This document shows positions 3,726 through 12,660 of a DNA stretch of 64,000 bases, piece after piece. The stretch's first letter is position 1, and the number at the start of each line of letters is the position of its first letter. Position numbers and translations under genes: made by a program. The DNA is taken from positions 1 to 64,000 of the forward strand of contig NZ_JPME01000014.1 in the NCBI RefSeq assembly GCF_000732605.1, read 5' to 3'. Under the pieces are notes generated by a model, which had not been told where the DNA came from, searched no databases, and was given only the letters and a program-made list of their open reading frames with translations. The DNA is from Lacrimispora celerecrescens (GTDB lineage Bacteria; Bacillota; Clostridia; Lachnospirales; Lachnospiraceae).

Positions 3726-5396
3726 GTGAAAAAAATTTTGGATAATAATTATTTTGATTTAATCATTACCAATCCAGTTGTTTCAACCCCCAGCCTTGAT
3801 AACATCACCTACTTAAACAACAGGCATTCCTTGCTGCATATTCCGATTGCCGATGTAACTCTTTGTGAAATGGTAAAGTATCCCGTCCACACCTTTCCTG
3901 CAATATTTACGCTCACATCTACGGTCAGCCTGGAACAATCCGGTATTGGAACGGTTCAGCGGAACCCTGCCTTAGCCCTATATGGATCGGGTGTAATCAT
4001 TGTAGTCATTGATACTGGCGTTGATTATCAGCATCCTGCGTTCCGCAACAGCGATGGCTCAACCCGGATTCTCTCTATATGGGACCAGACCCAGCAGGAG
4101 GGAACTCCTCCTGAGACGTTTACCTTTGGCACGGAATACAGCCGGGAGACAATCAATACCGCATTAAATTCTGATGATCCCTTATCGATTGTACCATCAA
4201 CAGACACAAACGGACACGGAACGGCTATTGCAAGCGTTATCGCCGGTACCCCCAACTTACTGGAATCCTTTAGCGGCGTAGTTCCTCAATCTGATTTGGT
4301 AATCGTAAAACTTAAGGAAGCAAAAGAAAATCTAAAAAGGTTTTATTTTATTCCCGATGAAGCTCTATGCTTTCAGGAATCGGATCTTATGCTCAGCTTC
4401 CGTTATTCCCTTGCCATTTCGGAAAAATATAACCGTCCTGTGGTTACCTGCTTCGCTCTTGGAAGCAGTCAGGGGGGCCATGACGGCAGGGGCGCTCTAA
4501 GCGGTTATCTAAATGACCTGGCACTGCAGCCCAGTATTGGCATATCCGTTTCTGCCGGTAACGAGGGAAACAGTCAAAGACATTATTTTAATTCTACCCA
4601 ATCAGTGCCTTATTACAATGATTTCGAATTAAGAATTGGGGAAAATGATAAAATGTTTGCCATGGAAATCTGGTCAAGTTCACTTGGACGGCTTTCCATT
4701 GATATCTCATCACCAAACAGAGAATCCACTCAGCAGGTATATCCTACGCTGGGTGATTGCAGAGTCTTTAACTTTGTATTCACCCCTACTACCCTCTATG
4801 TCAACAATTATCTTTTTGAAGAGGAAACCGGAGACCAGATGATCCTGGTGCGTTTTGAGAACACCACACCCGGGATCTGGCGCATACGGATCAGGAGCGT
4901 TGAAGATGAGCCTTTGTCCTTTCATGCCTGGCTCCCTTCCGACGGCCTCATATCCAATCAGACCTTTTTTCTTAATTCCTCTCCTGATACCACCATCACT
5001 TCACCTGGAAACGGCAGGCGCCAGTTGACTGTAACTGCCTATAATCAGCTTAATAATTCAATTCTTGGTGAATCGAGCAGGGGTTATACAAGAATGGGCC
5101 TTATCAAACCGGATATAGCCGCTCCTGGTTACCAGCTCACCTGCGCAGTTCCTGGAAATCAATATGGTTCTGTTACAGGAACAGGCGCTGCTGCTGCCCA
5201 CGTATCCGGCATCATTGCCATGGTCTTTGAATGGGCCATTGTCAGGGGAAATTACAAAACGATGAATGGAGTCGATGTTAGCCGTCTGATGATGAGAGGT
5301 GCGGTGCGTGCCAGCTCATACACATATCCAAATAACATATGGGGTTACGGCCAGGTCAACGTAAACAATATGTTCTTGCAGCTTACCAGTATTTAA
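3726..5396 (+). CDS. Csp-like S8 (subtilase) family protein, catalytic Ser replaced by Gly
   Basis: 556 residues. The GTG at 3726 is chosen because AAGGAG lies 8 nt upstream; the in-frame ATG at 3684 has no such site. Subtilase landmarks: Asp96 in IDTGVD, His164 in NGHGTA, and the oxyanion-hole Asn in SAGNEGN. At the catalytic Ser position the motif reads TGTGAAAAH, with Gly487 (codon GGC at 5184-5186). An insertion of about 140 residues between the Asn and Ser blocks matches the jelly-roll of clostridial Csp germination proteins. There is no signal peptide. In Clostridioides difficile CspC is a germinant-sensing pseudoprotease, and this protein may likewise be a sensor or scaffold. A paralogue lies at 6245-7918 in convergent orientation. 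Family firm; germination role inferred. Confidence 0.85.
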   Translation: MKKILDNNYFDLIITNPVVSTPSLDNITYLNNRHSLLHIPIADVTLCEMVKYPVHTFPAIFTLTSTVSLEQSGIGTVQRNPALALYGSGVIIVVIDTGVDYQHPAFRNSDGSTRILSIWDQTQQEGTPPETFTFGTEYSRETINTALNSDDPLSIVPSTDTNGHGTAIASVIAGTPNLLESFSGVVPQSDLVIVKLKEAKENLKRFYFIPDEALCFQESDLMLSFRYSLAISEKYNRPVVTCFALGSSQGGHDGRGALSGYLNDLALQPSIGISVSAGNEGNSQRHYFNSTQSVPYYNDFELRIGENDKMFAMEIWSSSLGRLSIDISSPNRESTQQVYPTLGDCRVFNFVFTPTTLYVNNYLFEEETGDQMILVRFENTTPGIWRIRIRSVEDEPLSFHAWLPSDGLISNQTFFLNSSPDTTITSPGNGRRQLTVTAYNQLNNSILGESSRGYTRMGLIKPDIAAPGYQLTCAVPGNQYGSVTGTGAAAAHVSGIIAMVFEWAIVRGNYKTMNGVDVSRLMMRGAVRASSYTYPNNIWGYGQVNVNNMFLQLTSI

Positions 5397-5504
5397 TAGC
5401 ATGAAGGCAACAATTGTCTCAAAAACTAATTTTCAACAATATGTCCAGAACATTACATAAACGGTGCTTTACAACTGTTATATAATTTTCTGGGAGGTGA
5501 TCGT

Positions 5505-5687
5505 ATGAGACACTGGAATAAGAAATTCGAAAAAAGCTTGGAGAAAGAATTCAACCGGTTAGAGGCTGCCAGCAGGGATGTAATCCCACCTGCTGCTCCT
5601 CCCGGAGAATTCGAAAACATCATGGCCGAAATGGAGCGCAGAGGGATCGAACCAAGGGTAAGAAAAGAATTAAGAAAAAAGAAATAG
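5505..5687 (+). CDS. small charged protein, unknown function
   Basis: 60 residues, very rich in Lys, Arg and Glu, with a Pro/Ala stretch (PPAAPP) in the middle. GGGAGGTGATC stands just before the ATG, a strong ribosome binding site, and a GC-rich hairpin terminator follows the stop directly, so I consider the gene real. TATAAT at about 5480 could be its promoter -10. No transmembrane segment and no family that I recognise. It lies between two Csp-like pseudoprotease genes and next to a holin-like gene; a shared role is possible but unproven. Confidence 0.65.
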   Translation: MRHWNKKFEKSLEKEFNRLEAASRDVIPPAAPPGEFENIMAEMERRGIEPRVRKELRKKK

Positions 5688-5717
5688 GCGGGCCGGGTTT
5701 CCGGAAACCCGCCATTT
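5688..5717 (+). terminator. terminator after the 60-residue protein
   Basis: GGGTTTCC/GGAAACCC (5695-5710), extended by outer GGC/GCC pairs, followed by ATTTTCG. Confidence 0.65.
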
Positions 5718-5782
5718 TCGATTTAAGTGTCAGATGATAAGGGCCCGGGTAATCCCAGACCCCTGTCACCAATAGTTTTTTA

Positions 5783-6085
5783 TTATTCTGTTTTCCCAGA
5801 TTGCTTAATCAGCTGATTTACGTAGGTGCTCAGTCCGGCAACCAGGATTCCTTGGGTGATTGCCGTAAATGCTGCAGTAGCAATCTGCTGGAGAGTGTGC
5901 ACCTCACACACGGACATTACGTAAACACCACACAAAACAATGCCCGCCGCTCCGTTAATCATCGGAATGTATTTATCTTTAATCGTCTGGCTTTGCTTAA
6001 TCCACTGCCCCAGCAGGTAAAGGACCACTGCCACTACAACCAGTTCTGGTTTGACATAATTTATGATCTCTTCCATAATAATCAT
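5783..6085 (-). CDS. phage holin-like small membrane protein
   Basis: 100 residues (or 97 if the in-frame ATG at 6076 is used; the AAGGA site favours the first ATG only slightly). Three hydrophobic segments are visible at about 12-25, 40-57 and 70-85, and the C-terminus is short and charged (KQSGKTE). This matches the phage holin family of about 90-110 residues common in Lachnospiraceae. No endolysin or other phage gene is adjacent, so it does not look like part of a prophage. It sits on the same strand as and downstream of nothing else; its neighbours are the two Csp-like genes. Its role could be membrane permeabilisation or something domesticated. Confidence 0.72.
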   Translation of the reverse strand: MIIMEEIINYVKPELVVVAVVLYLLGQWIKQSQTIKDKYIPMINGAAGIVLCGVYVMSVCEVHTLQQIATAAFTAITQGILVAGLSTYVNQLIKQSGKTE

Positions 6086-6189
6086 TTCCTTCCCCCTTTC
6101 CTAATTCAGAAATCCATCCTTAACCCCTTCAGTCTGATGATAACCGCCTGATTTAATTGATGCTTTCTTTTCCTCAAACGTTCCTATGT

Positions 6190-6240
6190 GAAAAAGACCT
6201 CCAGACTGCCGGAGAAGATTCTGTCCAGTCTGAAGGTCTT
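6190..6240 (-). terminator. terminator of the second Csp-like gene
   Basis: On the minus strand, AAGACCTTCAGACTG pairs with CAGTCTGGAGGTCTT, followed by TTTTT. It ends the transcript just after the stop at 6245. Confidence 0.85.
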
Positions 6241-6244
6241 GATC

Positions 6245-7918
6245 TTAACTTGTTGTCAGCTGCCTAAACATATTTTCTGCATCCAGCTGACCGTATCCCC
6301 ATACATTGTTGGGATAAATATTTGTAGGATCACGTCTTGCCCCGCGAATCATCAAGCGGTTGACTTGATATCCTGTAATGGATGTAAAGTTTCCCTTATT
6401 GTAAGCCCATTCCAAGGTCATGGCCGCAACCCCTGCCGCATGGGCAGCCGCAACTCCGGTACCGGTTGCACTTCCATATTGAAAATCAGGAAGTGCACAG
6501 GGAATCTGGTAGCCCGGGGAGCCCAAATCTGGCTTTATAAGTCCCAGTCTGGTATATCCTCTGCTTGATTCACTAAGTATATTTCCATCCAGCTGATTAT
6601 AAGCCGTAACGGTCAGAGGATGTACCGCATCTCCCTGAGAAGTTATGGTCGTATCAGGATTAGCATCCAGGAAAAATGTCTCATTTGATATGATATTCCC
6701 AGAAGGCAGCCATGCATGATAGGAAAATGCTTCATTCTCAGTGCTGCCTACTCTAAAATACCAGGTTCCGGGAACGATATTTTGGAAACGTACCAGAATC
6801 AGCTGGTCTCCGGTTTCCTCTTCAAAAATAATATTGTTCACCCAGGCAACGGTTTCTACGGATTGAAAAACAATCTTTTTACAATCTGAAAAGGCAGGAT
6901 AAATAATCTGGGAAGTCTCCCAGGTGGGAGCGGTGATTTCTATATAAAGCTTGGAAGGTATGTAAGGCCAGATTTCCATGGAAAATCCCTTATCATTGAT
7001 TCCTACATTTAACCGGAAGTTGTTTACATAAGGTGCTGTCTGCGTATTATTAAAATAATGCCTTCGGCTGTTGCCTTCATTCCCGGCAGCAATGGTCACG
7101 CCGATTTTAGGCAGCTGTACCAGATAATCCAGGTAGGCGCTGGAGGCCCCCCGCCCGTCGTGCCCTCCCTGGCTGCTTCCAAGGGCAATACATATGACCA
7201 GAGGCCGATTCAGCCTTTGGGCGGTAGTGACCAAATACCGGATTCCAAGGATGATGTCTGATTCCTGATAGCACAACGCACTATCCGGAACAAAGAAAAG
7301 CTTCTTTAAATTATCCTTTGCCGTTTTCAATTTTACTACCAAAAGATCTGCTTCCGGAACAACACCGCTGAAGTTATAAGCTTCATTAGGCCTTCCGGCA
7401 ATGATGCTTGCAATGGCAGTTCCATGGCGTATGGTATCAACCGTAGGAACTATTAAAAAAGGATTTTCAGAGATTAATGCAAAATTAATCAGTTCTCTGG
7501 TATATTCAGCACCAAAAGTAAAACCTCTTGGAGGTGTGCTTCCCACCTGAGTTTGATCCCATATAGAAAGGATTCTGGTTGTTTTGTCATTATACTTAAA
7601 TGCGGGATGGCGGTAATCAATACCGGTATCCACAATGCCAACGATCACCCCTCTCCCAATCAGACCAAGGCCAGGAGTCCTCTGAACTGCTCCAATACCG
7701 GATTTCTCAATGCTTACCGATGATTCCAGGGTATATAAAGTCGGAAAGGAATGGTAGGGAGTTACTCCAAGATCACAGGGCTCCATCTGATCCTTTGGTA
7801 TATGCAGCAAGGAATTCATTTCATTCAGCGTGGTAATATTATCACCAGTATTATAAGATGGAACCATAGCATTACTTATGATCAGATCATAATACCGATT
7901 ATCCAGTATTTTTTCCAT
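6245..7918 (-). CDS. Csp-like S8 (subtilase) family protein, catalytic Ser replaced by Gly
   Basis: 557 residues starting at the ATG at 7918, which follows AGGAGG at 7 nt; a longer in-frame extension upstream lacks a site. It is a paralogue of the protein at 3726, sharing the N-terminus (EKILDNRYYDLIISNA against KKILDNNYFDLIITNP) and overall layout. Asp97 in VDTGID, His165 in IRHGTA and Asn in AAGNEGN are kept. The nucleophile motif is TGTGVAAAH with Gly488 (codon GGA, 6457-6455), so the protein should lack Ser-protease activity. His is preceded by IR, not the usual NG. A jelly-roll-like insertion is present and there is no signal peptide. It resembles clostridial CspC/CspA, which help trigger spore germination. 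Family firm; function inferred. Confidence 0.85.
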   Translation of the reverse strand: MEKILDNRYYDLIISNAMVPSYNTGDNITTLNEMNSLLHIPKDQMEPCDLGVTPYHSFPTLYTLESSVSIEKSGIGAVQRTPGLGLIGRGVIVGIVDTGIDYRHPAFKYNDKTTRILSIWDQTQVGSTPPRGFTFGAEYTRELINFALISENPFLIVPTVDTIRHGTAIASIIAGRPNEAYNFSGVVPEADLLVVKLKTAKDNLKKLFFVPDSALCYQESDIILGIRYLVTTAQRLNRPLVICIALGSSQGGHDGRGASSAYLDYLVQLPKIGVTIAAGNEGNSRRHYFNNTQTAPYVNNFRLNVGINDKGFSMEIWPYIPSKLYIEITAPTWETSQIIYPAFSDCKKIVFQSVETVAWVNNIIFEEETGDQLILVRFQNIVPGTWYFRVGSTENEAFSYHAWLPSGNIISNETFFLDANPDTTITSQGDAVHPLTVTAYNQLDGNILSESSRGYTRLGLIKPDLGSPGYQIPCALPDFQYGSATGTGVAAAHAAGVAAMTLEWAYNKGNFTSITGYQVNRLMIRGARRDPTNIYPNNVWGYGQLDAENMFRQLTTS

Positions 7919-8442: not shown

Positions 8443-11400
8443 CTAAGAGAAATCCCGTGCAGAGTTATATTTCGAAAATCCACAGTTTACTCCCTCAATT
8501 AAAGTTTCATCGAATGATTCCTCTTCATTTAGTTCCTGGACACTATCCGGCTCCGCTTCCCCAGCCAGGGGTTCTTCAGTCAGATTTTCTTCCGGGTACT
8601 TCTCTTCCGAACTTTTCTCTTCTGAACTTTCCTCTGACGGGCTCTCCTCTGCCGGACTCTCCTCTACCGGACCTTCCTCTGTCGGGCCTTCCTCTGTTCG
8701 ATTTTCTTCGTCCCCACTTTCTTCTTCCCTAATTTCTTCTTCCGTAATTACTTCCTCTTCATTTTCTTCTGAAGGCTTATTTACTTCCTCTGCATTTTCT
8801 TCTGAAGCCTTATTTCCTTCCTCTGGCTCAGGTTTCTCTACAGCCTCTGCAACTGGTTCTTCCATAATTAATTTCCTTGCTTCCATATTCATATAATTTT
8901 GGATTTCCGGAACTGTTACAGTTATTTCATATGGCGCATAATTATTATATTCTGATAGTATTCTTACCTCATGTTCCTCTGAGGTGAAATTCTTTGCTAA
9001 AATGGTTAAACTGTATGGCTTTGTTCTCGTATTTAAGCTGTAATCTGTGCCACTGGTCAGCTTCTCGCCATCCAGATAGACAGTGTTGTAGGAGCTATAA
9101 AAATAGTAAGATGCATCCGTAGAAAATTGCAAATCTCCGTTTTCCAACCACTCATCTGTTATATCCGGAAGCTTCTGATACGGTGTGAAGCTAACATTAC
9201 AGGAACGGTATCCCGGTACTGAGATTGTAACGTTATAGCCATAATAATATGACAATGTACCGCTTAGTGTAATTGAAAGCTGCTCTTCATCAACGTTTTT
9301 GCTAAATCCTGTTATCGTCTGGCTGGAGGAAGAACGCTTTACGGATATGTGGGACTGGATCAGAGAATCCCACCATTCCTGGTTCCCATCCGCCACATGC
9401 AGGACGATTGTACTTTCTCCGCTTAAGGAGGTTCCGTTTTCTACTGCCAGCTTTGGCGCCGGTTCATAGGCAATATACTGCCCAAAACTCATTTCGACCT
9501 TTTGATATGCTTCATTATACAGGACCAGAAGGTTTTCTTCCTCCGTAAGCAGTTCAGCAGGTATGTAAATGGTGCTGTATCCGCTGGTCGTATATCCGGT
9601 ACCCTTCTTCAACTCGGTTTCATTTAAGGATACTGTTACCTTATCATAGAAATAAGAATCTGTGGCTGTCAGTTCCAGGCGTTCTTCGTCATAATTCATC
9701 GCGCTCTTAACACTGACTGAATATAAGATTCTGACCTCTGCCTGAGCTGCCCGGTATCCCTTTGCATTTACCGTAACCGTATAAGTACCAGGGCTGTAGG
9801 AGCTAACAGTTGGCAAAGTCAGTCCATTTTCATTTTTTGTATAAGTGATAGCTGTGGAAGAATAAGAATCCGTTAGTGTCACTGAACTGATATTATTCAG
9901 CCAATCATCTGCCTCTCCTGACACCACTTCAACCGTTACGGTACCTTTCTGTACAACCGCTTCTGACTTTAACACCGGAGCTTCTAATGGAGACACCAAA
10001 TCTGCCGGTGCAGTCCCTTCTATTACCTTTATTCCGTAGCCGGAGGCATAAAGCTCAATTCTGTACGGCGATCCGGCGGTAAAGTTATGGGGGGAAATTT
10101 CAATTCCTTTGTTGTAAGAAGCGGTATAATCAGCAGCTTCTCCCTTTTTCAGTTCTGTTCCATTTAAAACCACCTTTGTTACATAGGAACTTAAATAAGA
10201 GGCGTTGCCTGTAAGTATTAAGCTGTAATTTTCCTGGTTCCACTGCTGGGTTATGGCAGGCGGTGCTTTTACGGGAGTAAACGTTATCGCTACTGCATCA
10301 TATCCCGGTATGGCAATTTTCATGGTATATGTGTAATAAGAAGACAATGTAGTCTTATTCGCAGTGACCGTAAAACTGCTTCCTTCTTTCTCAAGAGAAA
10401 GGCCGGAAACACTGCTATAGGAATATGACAGAGTAAGATGATCAGCCTCTAAAGTCTGGAACCATTCCATCTCTTCGCTGTCTTCCTCCAAGGCTCCGAT
10501 ATCAAATACCACAGAAGAACCTTCTATCACTTCCCTTACGGTAACAGGCGGCGCTTTCTTAGGCGTAACAAACGCCTCCGGGGAATCCACCTCAAGACTG
10601 GTATCCTCATAACCCTTTGCCTGAATTTCAATCGTATTTTTTCCGTTTACCAGATAGCGGTAGGAAATATACAGATTATTGTAATCACTCGTAAAGCTTC
10701 CTGATTCCAGCCGGGTTCCATTGACCGTGATTGCCGTTATCTGATTTGTATAATATGTAAAGTCCGCTCTTAATTTCAACTGGCCGTTGGCGTCATCCCA
10801 AGCAGCCGTAAAAGATGGAGCCTTATCTACAACAGAAAGAGAACCTTTTACATCCCCGAACCCAAAGGAATGGATCGTAACCTCATAATCTCCCACATAA
10901 TTCATAGGTCCACTGATCGCATCGACTCCCAGAGTTATGGTTTTCCCGTCTGCTGACAAGGTATTGCTTTCCTGATAGTAATGGGTTTTGGTTTCACTGT
11001 AAGGAATCTCAATTTCAGTAATCGAACGGTACCAAGATTCATTTTCCTCACCGAGCTGTATGACTGCGCTCTTTCCTTTCAATGATGGGGAAATGGTCAG
11101 TTCAGGCGGATTGGTATTGTCTGTTTTACCTGTTAAAAGTTCTACTTTTGTTCCGTAGCCACCTTTATCTGTTAAATACTTCACATATCTGGGCAACTCT
11201 TCCGCCTTTTTCCAACTTCTGATCTTTAAATCTTTCGCATCCGTACTCAGGGTCAGGTTCTCATTTAATGCGGATAATTTCTCGGAAGGTTCCCATTTAG
11301 ACAGAAAGGCTTCTACAGAAGAGGTTCCTATTCCCAGTTTATCTGCAATGATGTTATTTGCTGCCAAATCAAACAATACAGCAATTGTGGCCACCTCTTC

Positions 11401-12660
11401 CTTTCCCTCCAGACTTGCAGGGGGAGCGGTAGTCGCACTTGAGACCGCATCCGAGGCAAAGCTCTTAATATCGGCCGCGGTCCGGTTATCTTCCTCTATC
11501 AGGATATAATTTTCTGTATCTTCCTGGCTTTTGCTCTGCGCTTCCTCCTGACCCTGAAGCTGCATTGTATCTACCGTAGTTTCCGTAGGTTTTATGAAGA
11601 GGGAATCTCCCTGCCTGATAAATTTCACATATTGTGTCAATGGAATGGTAGCCTTAGTAAGCACCACATACGGGATATCTGACGGAAGGGAAAGGTTGGT
11701 TTCAATAAACTCTTTCTCCGCCGCAGTACTCTTACCCGGCTCTCTCAGTGCAATAACAGATACGGTCCATTTCCCGGAGGTTATGGCCAGTGTATGGGTA
11801 TTTTCATCCGGTAAAGGTATCTTTACCGTCCTGCCTGAAGTAGTCACAGGAGTAACGGACGATGTGGCATCTTTCCCTGCTATGGAATAGCGGAACTCTT
11901 CAAGCCCCTCTGCCTCATCGGAAAAGGATATTACGGCATAGGGAAGTCCCTGAACAGATACGATCCCGGTTTGTTCCAGAATAACAGGACTTTTGCTTTC
12001 CCATGGATTTTCGCCGCCCTCCGTTCCATTATTTCCGGTATTTCCGTTTACGTTATCCCCTCCTCCGGGTTGATTGTTTCCTCCCCCTGGTTGATTGTTT
12101 CCTCCCCCTGGCTGATTGTTTCCTCCTCCCGTTTGATTGCCTCCGTTCCCCCCCGTATTGTTGGAGGTTTTACTGCCAGAGCTGCTGCCATTGTTTGAAT
12201 TCCGGGATGACTTTCCATTCCAGGCCCCGCTGCCATCCACATAGTATCCATCGGGCGTGTAACCATTTACCAAAGCTTCTCCTGACTGCTTGTCAAGATA
12301 ATACCACTTCCCATTGATCTCTTTCCAGCCGGAAGCCATGGAACCATCCGTATCCATATAATACCACTTTCCACGAATCTCCTTCCAGCCGGAAGCCATG
12401 GAACCGTCTGGCTCCAGATAATACCACTTCTGATCCGTGTCCTGGTACCATCCCGTTCTCATATTTCCAAGTTCATCAAAATGATACCAATTGCCGTCAT
12501 CGGTTTTCAGCCACGAATTCCTCTGTTCCTGGCCATCTTCCAGAATATACCGCCACTTATCCCCCTCCCGTCTCCACTCTCCTGCAAACGGCTGGATCGT
12601 AAATACCAAATTCATGGCAGTCAGAACCGCCAGTAATTTAACTTTATTTCTACTTCTCAT
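8443..12660 (-). CDS. large secreted surface protein: cell-wall-binding repeats plus HID/DUF1533-like repeats
   Basis: 1405 residues. The signal peptide covers about residues 1-26 (MRSRNKVKLLAVLTAMNLVF, cleavage near PFAG). Residues 28-147 hold about five choline-binding-type repeats (GSMASGWKEI.GKWYY), which attach proteins to the cell wall. A Gly/Asn/Pro linker (about 150-220) has 21-nt tandem repeats (GGGNNQP). The middle is a series of beta-rich modules of about 90-100 residues with the pattern LNGTELKKG...Y, like DUF1533 (haemoblobin or Shr HID) domains, some of which bind haem proteins. The last 150 residues are an acidic Glu/Ser/Pro tail with no sortase motif. AAGGAGG lies 6 nt before the ATG. 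It is a single-gene unit. Haem or adhesion roles are inferred. Confidence 0.82.
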   Translation of the reverse strand: MRSRNKVKLLAVLTAMNLVFTIQPFAGEWRREGDKWRYILEDGQEQRNSWLKTDDGNWYHFDELGNMRTGWYQDTDQKWYYLEPDGSMASGWKEIRGKWYYMDTDGSMASGWKEINGKWYYLDKQSGEALVNGYTPDGYYVDGSGAWNGKSSRNSNNGSSSGSKTSNNTGGNGGNQTGGGNNQPGGGNNQPGGGNNQPGGGDNVNGNTGNNGTEGGENPWESKSPVILEQTGIVSVQGLPYAVISFSDEAEGLEEFRYSIAGKDATSSVTPVTTSGRTVKIPLPDENTHTLAITSGKWTVSVIALREPGKSTAAEKEFIETNLSLPSDIPYVVLTKATIPLTQYVKFIRQGDSLFIKPTETTVDTMQLQGQEEAQSKSQEDTENYILIEEDNRTAADIKSFASDAVSSATTAPPASLEGKEEVATIAVLFDLAANNIIADKLGIGTSSVEAFLSKWEPSEKLSALNENLTLSTDAKDLKIRSWKKAEELPRYVKYLTDKGGYGTKVELLTGKTDNTNPPELTISPSLKGKSAVIQLGEENESWYRSITEIEIPYSETKTHYYQESNTLSADGKTITLGVDAISGPMNYVGDYEVTIHSFGFGDVKGSLSVVDKAPSFTAAWDDANGQLKLRADFTYYTNQITAITVNGTRLESGSFTSDYNNLYISYRYLVNGKNTIEIQAKGYEDTSLEVDSPEAFVTPKKAPPVTVREVIEGSSVVFDIGALEEDSEEMEWFQTLEADHLTLSYSYSSVSGLSLEKEGSSFTVTANKTTLSSYYTYTMKIAIPGYDAVAITFTPVKAPPAITQQWNQENYSLILTGNASYLSSYVTKVVLNGTELKKGEAADYTASYNKGIEISPHNFTAGSPYRIELYASGYGIKVIEGTAPADLVSPLEAPVLKSEAVVQKGTVTVEVVSGEADDWLNNISSVTLTDSYSSTAITYTKNENGLTLPTVSSYSPGTYTVTVNAKGYRAAQAEVRILYSVSVKSAMNYDEERLELTATDSYFYDKVTVSLNETELKKGTGYTTSGYSTIYIPAELLTEEENLLVLYNEAYQKVEMSFGQYIAYEPAPKLAVENGTSLSGESTIVLHVADGNQEWWDSLIQSHISVKRSSSSQTITGFSKNVDEEQLSITLSGTLSYYYGYNVTISVPGYRSCNVSFTPYQKLPDITDEWLENGDLQFSTDASYYFYSSYNTVYLDGEKLTSGTDYSLNTRTKPYSLTILAKNFTSEEHEVRILSEYNNYAPYEITVTVPEIQNYMNMEARKLIMEEPVAEAVEKPEPEEGNKASEENAEEVNKPSEENEEEVITEEEIREEESGDEENRTEEGPTEEGPVEESPAEESPSEESSEEKSSEEKYPEENLTEEPLAGEAEPDSVQELNEEESFDETLIEGVNCGFSKYNSARDFS

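Follow-up and report, generated by a model that had tools for sequence, protein, structure and literature searches.

Predicted Csp pseudoproteases in Lacrimispora celerecrescens belong to an independent, lineage-wide expansion around a single intact CspB

A 64,000-nucleotide stretch of DNA from Lacrimispora celerecrescens (the window; the opening 64 kb of contig C14, NZ_JPME01000014.1) carries two convergent genes, P1 and P2, for Csp-type subtilases of peptidase family S8. Judging by their sequences, both proteins are Csp-family subtilases with a broken catalytic triad, in which glycine stands in place of the nucleophilic serine. The comparison with other genomes indicates that they are part of a set of Csp pseudoproteases that expanded independently across the lineage around one intact CspB, a set larger than the pair first noticed.

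P1 (3,726–5,396, forward strand) encodes 556 amino acids from a GTG start preceded by AAGGAG. A prodomain of about residues 1–70 is followed by a subtilase domain with a jelly-roll insertion. P2 (6,245–7,918, reverse strand) encodes 557 amino acids from an ATG start. By coordinates calculated from residue numbers, the catalytic Asp column is occupied by Asp96 of P1 (4,011–4,013, forward) and Asp97 of P2 (7,628–7,630, reverse), the catalytic His column by His164 (4,215–4,217) and His165 (7,424–7,426), and the column of the oxyanion Asn by Asn279 (4,560–4,562) and Asn280 (7,079–7,081), each on the strand of its gene. The serine nucleophile of an active S8 protease is missing from both: its position is taken by Gly487 in P1 (codon GGC, 5,184–5,186, forward) and Gly488 in P2 (codon GGA, 6,455–6,457, reverse), within the motif TGTG-A/V-AAAH. 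In the alignment this glycine corresponds to Gly485 of the C. difficile-type CspC, which stands opposite Gly487 of P1, and to Ser500 of the CspB-type protein encoded in the same genome. An earlier sequence-only reading of the window had described the two proteins as Csp-like subtilases that retain Asp, His and the oxyanion Asn but have Gly in place of Ser, and both the alignment and the codons bear this out.

Both proteins match the Pfam family Peptidase_S8, with the match split into two stretches. Their best NCBIfam models are those for CspC and CspBA (NF040808 and NF040809), at scores far under the curated cut-offs of 675 and 1250 bits: 280 and 308 bits for P1, and 272 and 266 bits for P2. 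By these cut-offs, P1 and P2 do not count as strict members of the C. difficile CspC or CspBA types; they match CspC and the CspA half of the CspBA model. A phmmer search of PDB sequences placed eight Csp sequences on top for each protein, with expectation values (E) of 2e-72 to 4.6e-56 for P1 (next match 4.7e-11) and 3.9e-67 to 4.6e-49 for P2 (next match 5.4e-11), the best matches of both being CspA-type chains. An AlphaFold2 model of P1, built from a 77-sequence alignment, reached a predicted local distance difference test (pLDDT) of 90.9 and a predicted template modelling (pTM) score of 0.91, with a poorly predicted linker at residues 71–80. The top 11 PDB matches of this model in Foldseek are all CspA, CspC and CspB chains (E ≤2.6e-45; template modelling score by query 0.75–0.87), and the next subtilase follows only at E 6.1e-14. 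The predicted structure of P1 thus shows the Csp fold, prodomain and jelly roll included, and it resembles C. difficile CspA and CspC and C. perfringens CspB before all else, in line with the Csp-like character given in the sequence-only reading.

The genome from which the window comes (5.04 Mb, 99% complete) contains many more such genes. The PF00082 search and the fetched loci yielded ten Csp-like proteins of ~560 amino acids plus two ordinary subtilases. Nine of the ten have glycine at the nucleophile position. All nine genes are open frames, and their products share 50.6–65.9% identity. Asp and His are kept in eight of the nine and both are lost in L030; the oxyanion Asn is replaced by Asp in L030 and in the first L026 copy. 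The tenth protein, L024 on contig C20, has an intact D-H-S triad, shares 30–33% identity with the other nine and, in the CspBA model, matches the CspB half. An intact Csp thus exists elsewhere in the genome, where the sequence-only reading had placed an active partner. The idea of a special two-gene module did not survive: a unique module is ruled out by the nine copies in the genome, among which P1 and P2 are merely two scattered paralogs with one inherited ancestral loss. The number of distinct residues per position among the paralogs is only mildly raised in the prodomain (3.31), linker (3.39) and jelly roll (2.97) over the whole protein (2.75), and points to no ligand site. One of the two ordinary subtilases, a canonical one, is in two pieces (G000:C4:54482-55284, in L002, L019 and L032; model stretches 1–225 and 231–288) and may be frameshifted or misassembled.

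A profile of the Gly proteins matched all 25 genomes of the genus, with 4 to 17 matches per genome, CspB-type matches included. The genome of the window has 10 such matches, and the lowest count (4) comes from a genome that is 67% complete. In the family, where at most five candidates were scored per genome, at least one match was found in 167 of 250 genomes. The fetched loci gave 292 aligned domains, 279 of them with at least 400 residues, and 268 rows were left after rows contained in another were dropped. The 279 domains fall into the classes D-H-N-S (145), D-H-N-G (99), D-T-N-G (6), D-H-N-C (4) and others (8), with the nucleophile unreadable in 17. There are 109 Gly rows, or 105 distinct ones once contained duplicates are removed. 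Rows from the genus (n=90) comprise 76 Gly, 3 Cys and 2 Ser, with 9 ending before the site, while those from other Lachnospiraceae (n=122) comprise 98 Ser and 24 Gly. The Clostridiaceae-like family f37 (n=29) gave 27 Ser and two rows ending before the site; f54, the family with CspBA above the cut-off (n=11), gave 5 Ser, 4 Gly and 2 Ala; the remaining rows (n=16) are 14 Ser, one Gly and one Cys. The latter two both come from L037, whose record is titled as a Paenibacillaceae metagenome-assembled genome and whose Csp genes and promoter pattern closely resemble those of Lacrimispora; it is probably a mislabelled or contaminated bin. These proportions come from a biased sample, as loci were chosen by best score and 30 family genomes were picked largely for high scores or many copies. 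Because the best-scoring loci were taken, the sample holds too few of the Ser-type CspB proteins of the genus. Of the 30 picked family genomes, 10 have one or more Gly rows. In G005, 11 of 12 matches were fetched, all 11 with Gly. In three other Lachnospiraceae genomes, G067, G106 and G246 (L224-L228, L150, L218-L223, L239-L242), the Csp profile matched 8 to 12 times, with fragments counted. Their fetched copies mostly keep the catalytic serine, and expansion of Csp genes is thus not tied to serine loss.

The glycine appears to be maintained. The ratio of nonsynonymous to synonymous substitution rates (dN/dS) is 0.10–0.14 for P1 and P2, each compared with its counterparts in two relatives. Among the 105 distinct Gly rows the glycine is encoded by GGA (43), GGG (27), GGT (21) and GGC (14). 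Since the residue persists across all four codons and dN/dS is about 0.1, it reflects neither decay nor error, and both explanations were rejected. The earlier suggestion of a retained feature instead of a sequencing slip is upheld by the same data, together with the glycine in nine of the ten Csp copies of the genome.

The phylogeny started from the 262 rows in which the nucleophile could be read. Thinning at 82% identity left 204 of them, and the catalytic columns and their neighbours were omitted. One clade of 51 rows, with a support of 100 in the Shimodaira–Hasegawa-like approximate likelihood ratio test, is wholly non-Ser: 49 D-H-G, one G-Q-G and one D-H-C. It holds all nine Gly copies of the genome, other members of the genus, Kineothrix, Faecalicatena, Muricomes, [Clostridium] fimetarium and seven unnamed genera. 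In a careful tree of 91 chosen rows the clade is again non-Ser in 29 of 29 rows, with support of 100/100. According to these trees, the nine copies inherited one ancestral loss of the serine. Both trees place P1 and P2 on the CspA/CspC side and apart from CspB (support 98 and 100/100), in agreement with the initial assignment to the Csp group. Further Gly origins lie outside the clade: G091/G067, G041, G246, a second G067 copy and L054. Parsimony requires at least nine changes between Ser and non-Ser on the 204-row tree as well as on the 91-row tree. Whether glycine defines a clade had been put forward as a check: 51 of 51 clade rows are non-Ser, and the Ser-to-Gly loss recurs elsewhere. The Peptostreptococcaceae-type CspC (D-T-G) and CspA (D-Q-A, D-I-A) are apart from the Gly clade. 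With groups that were defined after the first tree had been viewed, the approximately unbiased (AU) test rejected a single clade in two cases: for the Gly clade together with CspC (p 8.8e-71), and for the whole set of Gly rows from Lachnospiraceae (p 1.4e-6). An inactivation common with C. difficile-type CspC and a single loss for all Lachnospiraceae Gly rows were rejected accordingly, and broken-triad Csps, by this phylogenetic evidence, arose more than once in Lachnospiraceae. The separate losses found there end in Gly, or in Cys in one subgroup.

Other positions of the clade are strongly conserved as well: the catalytic Asp and His columns and the Gly are each kept in 50 of the 51 rows, and the oxyanion Asn in 48. 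Three cysteines are new to the clade (positions 47, 345 and 473 in P1 numbering), and Cys215 and Cys242 are common to part of the Ser relatives. All five are present in 85 of the 105 distinct Gly rows, and 6 more have the last four with position 47 unaligned; the other 14 miss some of the five, including three tandem G133 copies inside the clade. None of the 146 Ser rows has Cys at 47, 345 or 473. Cys215 stands opposite CspC residue 215, in a gapped part of the alignment and within the clamp loop, which comprises CspC residues 203–216 (PMC6636752, in part). All five cysteines are also found in the four rows that have a cysteine nucleophile with Asp and His kept (motif TGTCASAA; L036:3162-4904, L037:3174-4904, L042:3165-4907 and L045:3162-4904). 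These rows form a subgroup of the clade that may represent either a thiol variant or a further inactive form.

A sigma-E-like pattern matching the consensus precedes both genes of the window. It reads TCATATT-14-CATATCAT before P1 (3,584–3,612, forward strand), ending 113 bp ahead of the gene, and TCATATT-13-CATAAAAT before P2 (7,959–7,986, reverse strand), ending 40 bp ahead. The pattern, TCATA(A/T)(T/C)-12 to 14-(G/C)CATA, was derived post hoc from csp upstream regions. Because it was rewritten from those regions, its count in csp genes is circular, and its evidential weight therefore comes only from its rarity in the genome and from relatives. The strict form has 16 matches on both strands of 5.03 Mb, with one for a reversed control, and six of the 16 end 36–113 bp ahead of six of the nine Gly genes. 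A looser form occurs within 160 bp upstream of 41 of 65 Gly genes of the genus and of 1 of 13 Gly genes elsewhere (apparently that of L037). It was found before none of the two Ser genes of the genus and none of the 39 Ser genes elsewhere; its background is 10 matches per 395,528 bases, csp sites counted in. By eye, many of the 24 pattern-less Gly genes of the genus are the second of a tandem pair or have variants of the pattern. Regular expressions for textbook sigma consensus sequences gave three loose sigma-E matches among the nine genes and little else. In C. difficile the csp operon is sigma-E dependent, and sigma-E promoters have ATA at −35 and a −10 element common with sigma-K, as in CATATTAT and CATATAAT, with a spacing of 16–18 bp called classical (PMC3789822, in part). 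Control of the Gly genes by sigma-E, and thus expression in the mother cell, is supported but not proven by these motifs.

The genome has the components of a Csp pathway together: the intact CspB-type L024 and SleC, the latter found in L292 by its match to the SleC structure 9h68 (E 1.4e-133). A complete Ger receptor was found in none of the 25 genomes of the genus, where one A-type protein remains. GerAC was detected in none of the 25, with B. subtilis as the positive control. GerAB (PF03845, a family that also gives matches in E. coli) gave only partial matches of at most 27.4 bits in nine of the 25, four of them above the cut-off. For GerA, 24 of the 25 genomes have a single match each, and G024 has two pieces. 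The GerA protein of the window's genome (L295) is far under the GerXA cut-off, and inspection of its fetched flanks by eye showed no B or C gene.

Between the two genes of the window lie a 60-residue charged open reading frame (ORF) without a Pfam match, downstream of P1 (5,505–5,687, forward strand), and a gene for a Hol44-family phage-type holin, downstream of P2 and on its strand (5,783–6,085, reverse). Both are kept in two relatives, with the order P1, 60-residue ORF, holin, P2 identical. Upstream of P1 is a gene for a streptomycin adenylyltransferase family protein (PF04439; 1,395–2,258). Adjoining P2, at 8,443–12,660, is a gene for a 1405-residue protein with choline-binding repeats, Shr-like haemoglobin-interacting domains and a Glu-rich C-terminal tail. 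Two ORFs with an identical N-terminus, L026:15466-16779 and L030:13415-14716, lie about 5–6 kb from Csp paralogs; the former has LysM and glycosyl hydrolase 18 domains, and we take it to be possibly a hydrolase of spore cortex fragments.

We propose, with a probability of about 0.65, that nine Csp pseudoproteases made in the mother cell gate one active CspB and SleC in germination. P1, P2 and their seven paralogs would be produced under sigma-E and built into the spore, where they would not cut but, folded and with the prodomain left uncleaved, act as pseudoenzymes. They may bind each other, the single intact CspB on contig C20, or both, and pass an environmental signal on to CspB, which would then cleave pro-SleC, so that SleC opens the cortex. 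The pseudoprotease part of this proposal is well supported by the sequences. We infer the missing protease activity, the spore location, the partner binding and the signalling role of the Gly proteins; a germination role of P1 and P2 is plausible from the sigma-E-like promoters, the presence of SleC and the finding of no complete Ger receptor. Several observations weigh against the proposal. The spacing from ATA to CATA is 15 bp for P2 and 16 bp for P1, at or just under the classical range. The promoter pattern was devised after the upstream regions had been viewed, and the relatives that test it are homologous. The other ten matches in the genome precede genes not recognised as sporulation genes, and no match precedes the intact CspB gene or the SleC gene. 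As each genome of the genus has a GerA-family protein, a residual GerA route may persist; by its title, PMC5935672 reports that another Clostridium requires an orphan GerXA protein to germinate with L-alanine. Outside the genus, five of seven searched clade-bearing genomes also have a high-scoring GerA protein (G049, G091, G133, G137 and G252; G053 and G147 have the lower-scoring type only), and a strict link between dead Csps and the absence of GerA was not found there. Finally, 50 of the 51 clade rows keep Asp and as many keep His, unlike C. difficile CspA and CspC, and simple catalytic loss gives no explanation for this.

A tentative extension, which we consider possible but would not favour, is that the Csp pseudoprotease repertoire of the genus replaced the Ger receptors as a germinant sensor array, with diverged dead paralogs responding to different signals and acting through one CspB. 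By analogy with CspC:CspA, the paralogs might possibly pair as homo- or heterodimers. If this were true, dead Csp sensors would have arisen independently in Lachnospiraceae and Peptostreptococcaceae. Less probable than the main proposal is that the Gly proteins serve spore building instead of germinant sensing, as scaffolds or chaperones that load or stabilise CspB, SleC or coat and cortex proteins. A mother-cell-type promoter suits assembly equally well, and CspA already loads CspC in C. difficile (PMC12880746, in part); however, nine diverged copies (50–66% identity) exceed the needs of one scaffold, and the prodomain, the linker and one jelly-roll segment are somewhat more variable among the paralogs. 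The two roles are not exclusive.

It is improbable that the Gly proteins retain protease activity by way of a different nucleophile or of substrate assistance, although this would account for the retention of Asp and His in 50 of 51 clade rows each. The cysteine in four rows (L036, L037, L042 and L045) is a thiol that could act, and 25 listed clade-specific positions include Ser 35, 65 and 410, Thr 28, and Cys 47, 215, 345 and 473. None of these residues lies within 13 residues of position 487, a distance along the sequence and not in space, and L030 lacks Asp and His too. About equally improbable, or slightly more so, is a division of labour in which only some of the nine regulate germination and the pair with the holin serves another function, such as mother-cell lysis. 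The Hol44-family holin after P2 on the same strand and the identical layout in two relatives suit this explanation, but none of nine ORFs scanned among the neighbours of other copies in the genome (L025-L030) matches a holin family: three gave no match, or none over 0.001, and one is an MscL channel. That the genes are relics, inactive copies that drift, is very improbable. Several paralogs in one genome, and the loss of all three catalytic residues in L030, might be expected of relics, but dN/dS of 0.10–0.14 contradicts drift for P1 and P2, to which this ratio applies; nine open frames, the Gly in 50 of 51 clade rows and the promoter pattern retained in relatives also speak against it.

Csp proteins of Clostridiaceae and Lachnospiraceae are described as exclusively intact in their triads (PMC6636752, in part) and as all predicted active (PMC12880746, in part), and both papers present Csp pseudoproteases as an apparent speciality of C. 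difficile and its family. Our genome searches contradict this view, with broken-triad Csps numerous in the genus of Lacrimispora. Judging by the titles and abstract openings of the papers listed, we found no published report of Csp pseudoproteases in Lachnospiraceae. The nearest tree relatives of the Gly clade are the intact-triad Csp paralogs of other Lachnospiraceae, which differ in having Ser in 98 of 122 distinct rows and no Ser row with Cys 47, 345 or 473. The CspB, CspA and CspC proteins of C. perfringens and other Clostridiaceae belong to the same Csp family, and among the structures of active members 4I0W comes closest; they differ by the serine in 27 of 29 f37 rows, the other two ending before the site.

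C. difficile CspC (PDB 6MW4, 9PR8) resembles P1 and P2 in the fold with prodomain and jelly roll, an insertion unique to Csp (PMC12880746, in part), and in the nucleophile Gly, the Asp and the side of the tree. It differs in that its catalytic His is replaced by Thr, whereas P1 and P2 keep His; that its loss of Ser to Gly is independent by the AU test (p 8.8e-71), the D-T-G rows lacking the clade cysteines; and that its gene lies next to cspBA in a shared operon (PMC12880746, in part), while P1 and P2 are separate single genes. The CspA domain of C. difficile CspBA (PDB 9PR9, 9PR8) is likewise a pseudoprotease of the same fold, but has Ala for Ser and Gln for His (Ile in one relative) and is produced fused to CspB, in contrast to the single-domain P1 and P2. 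In C. difficile the signal is proposed to reach CspB, directly or indirectly, through the CspC:CspA heterodimer, in which both partners are pseudoproteases; how this heterodimer senses germinants, directly or not, and activates CspB is listed as open (PMC12880746, in part). A system of independent origin, rich in natural variants and with a single intact partner, would offer comparative data, and other organisms, for testing these questions about CspC:CspA.

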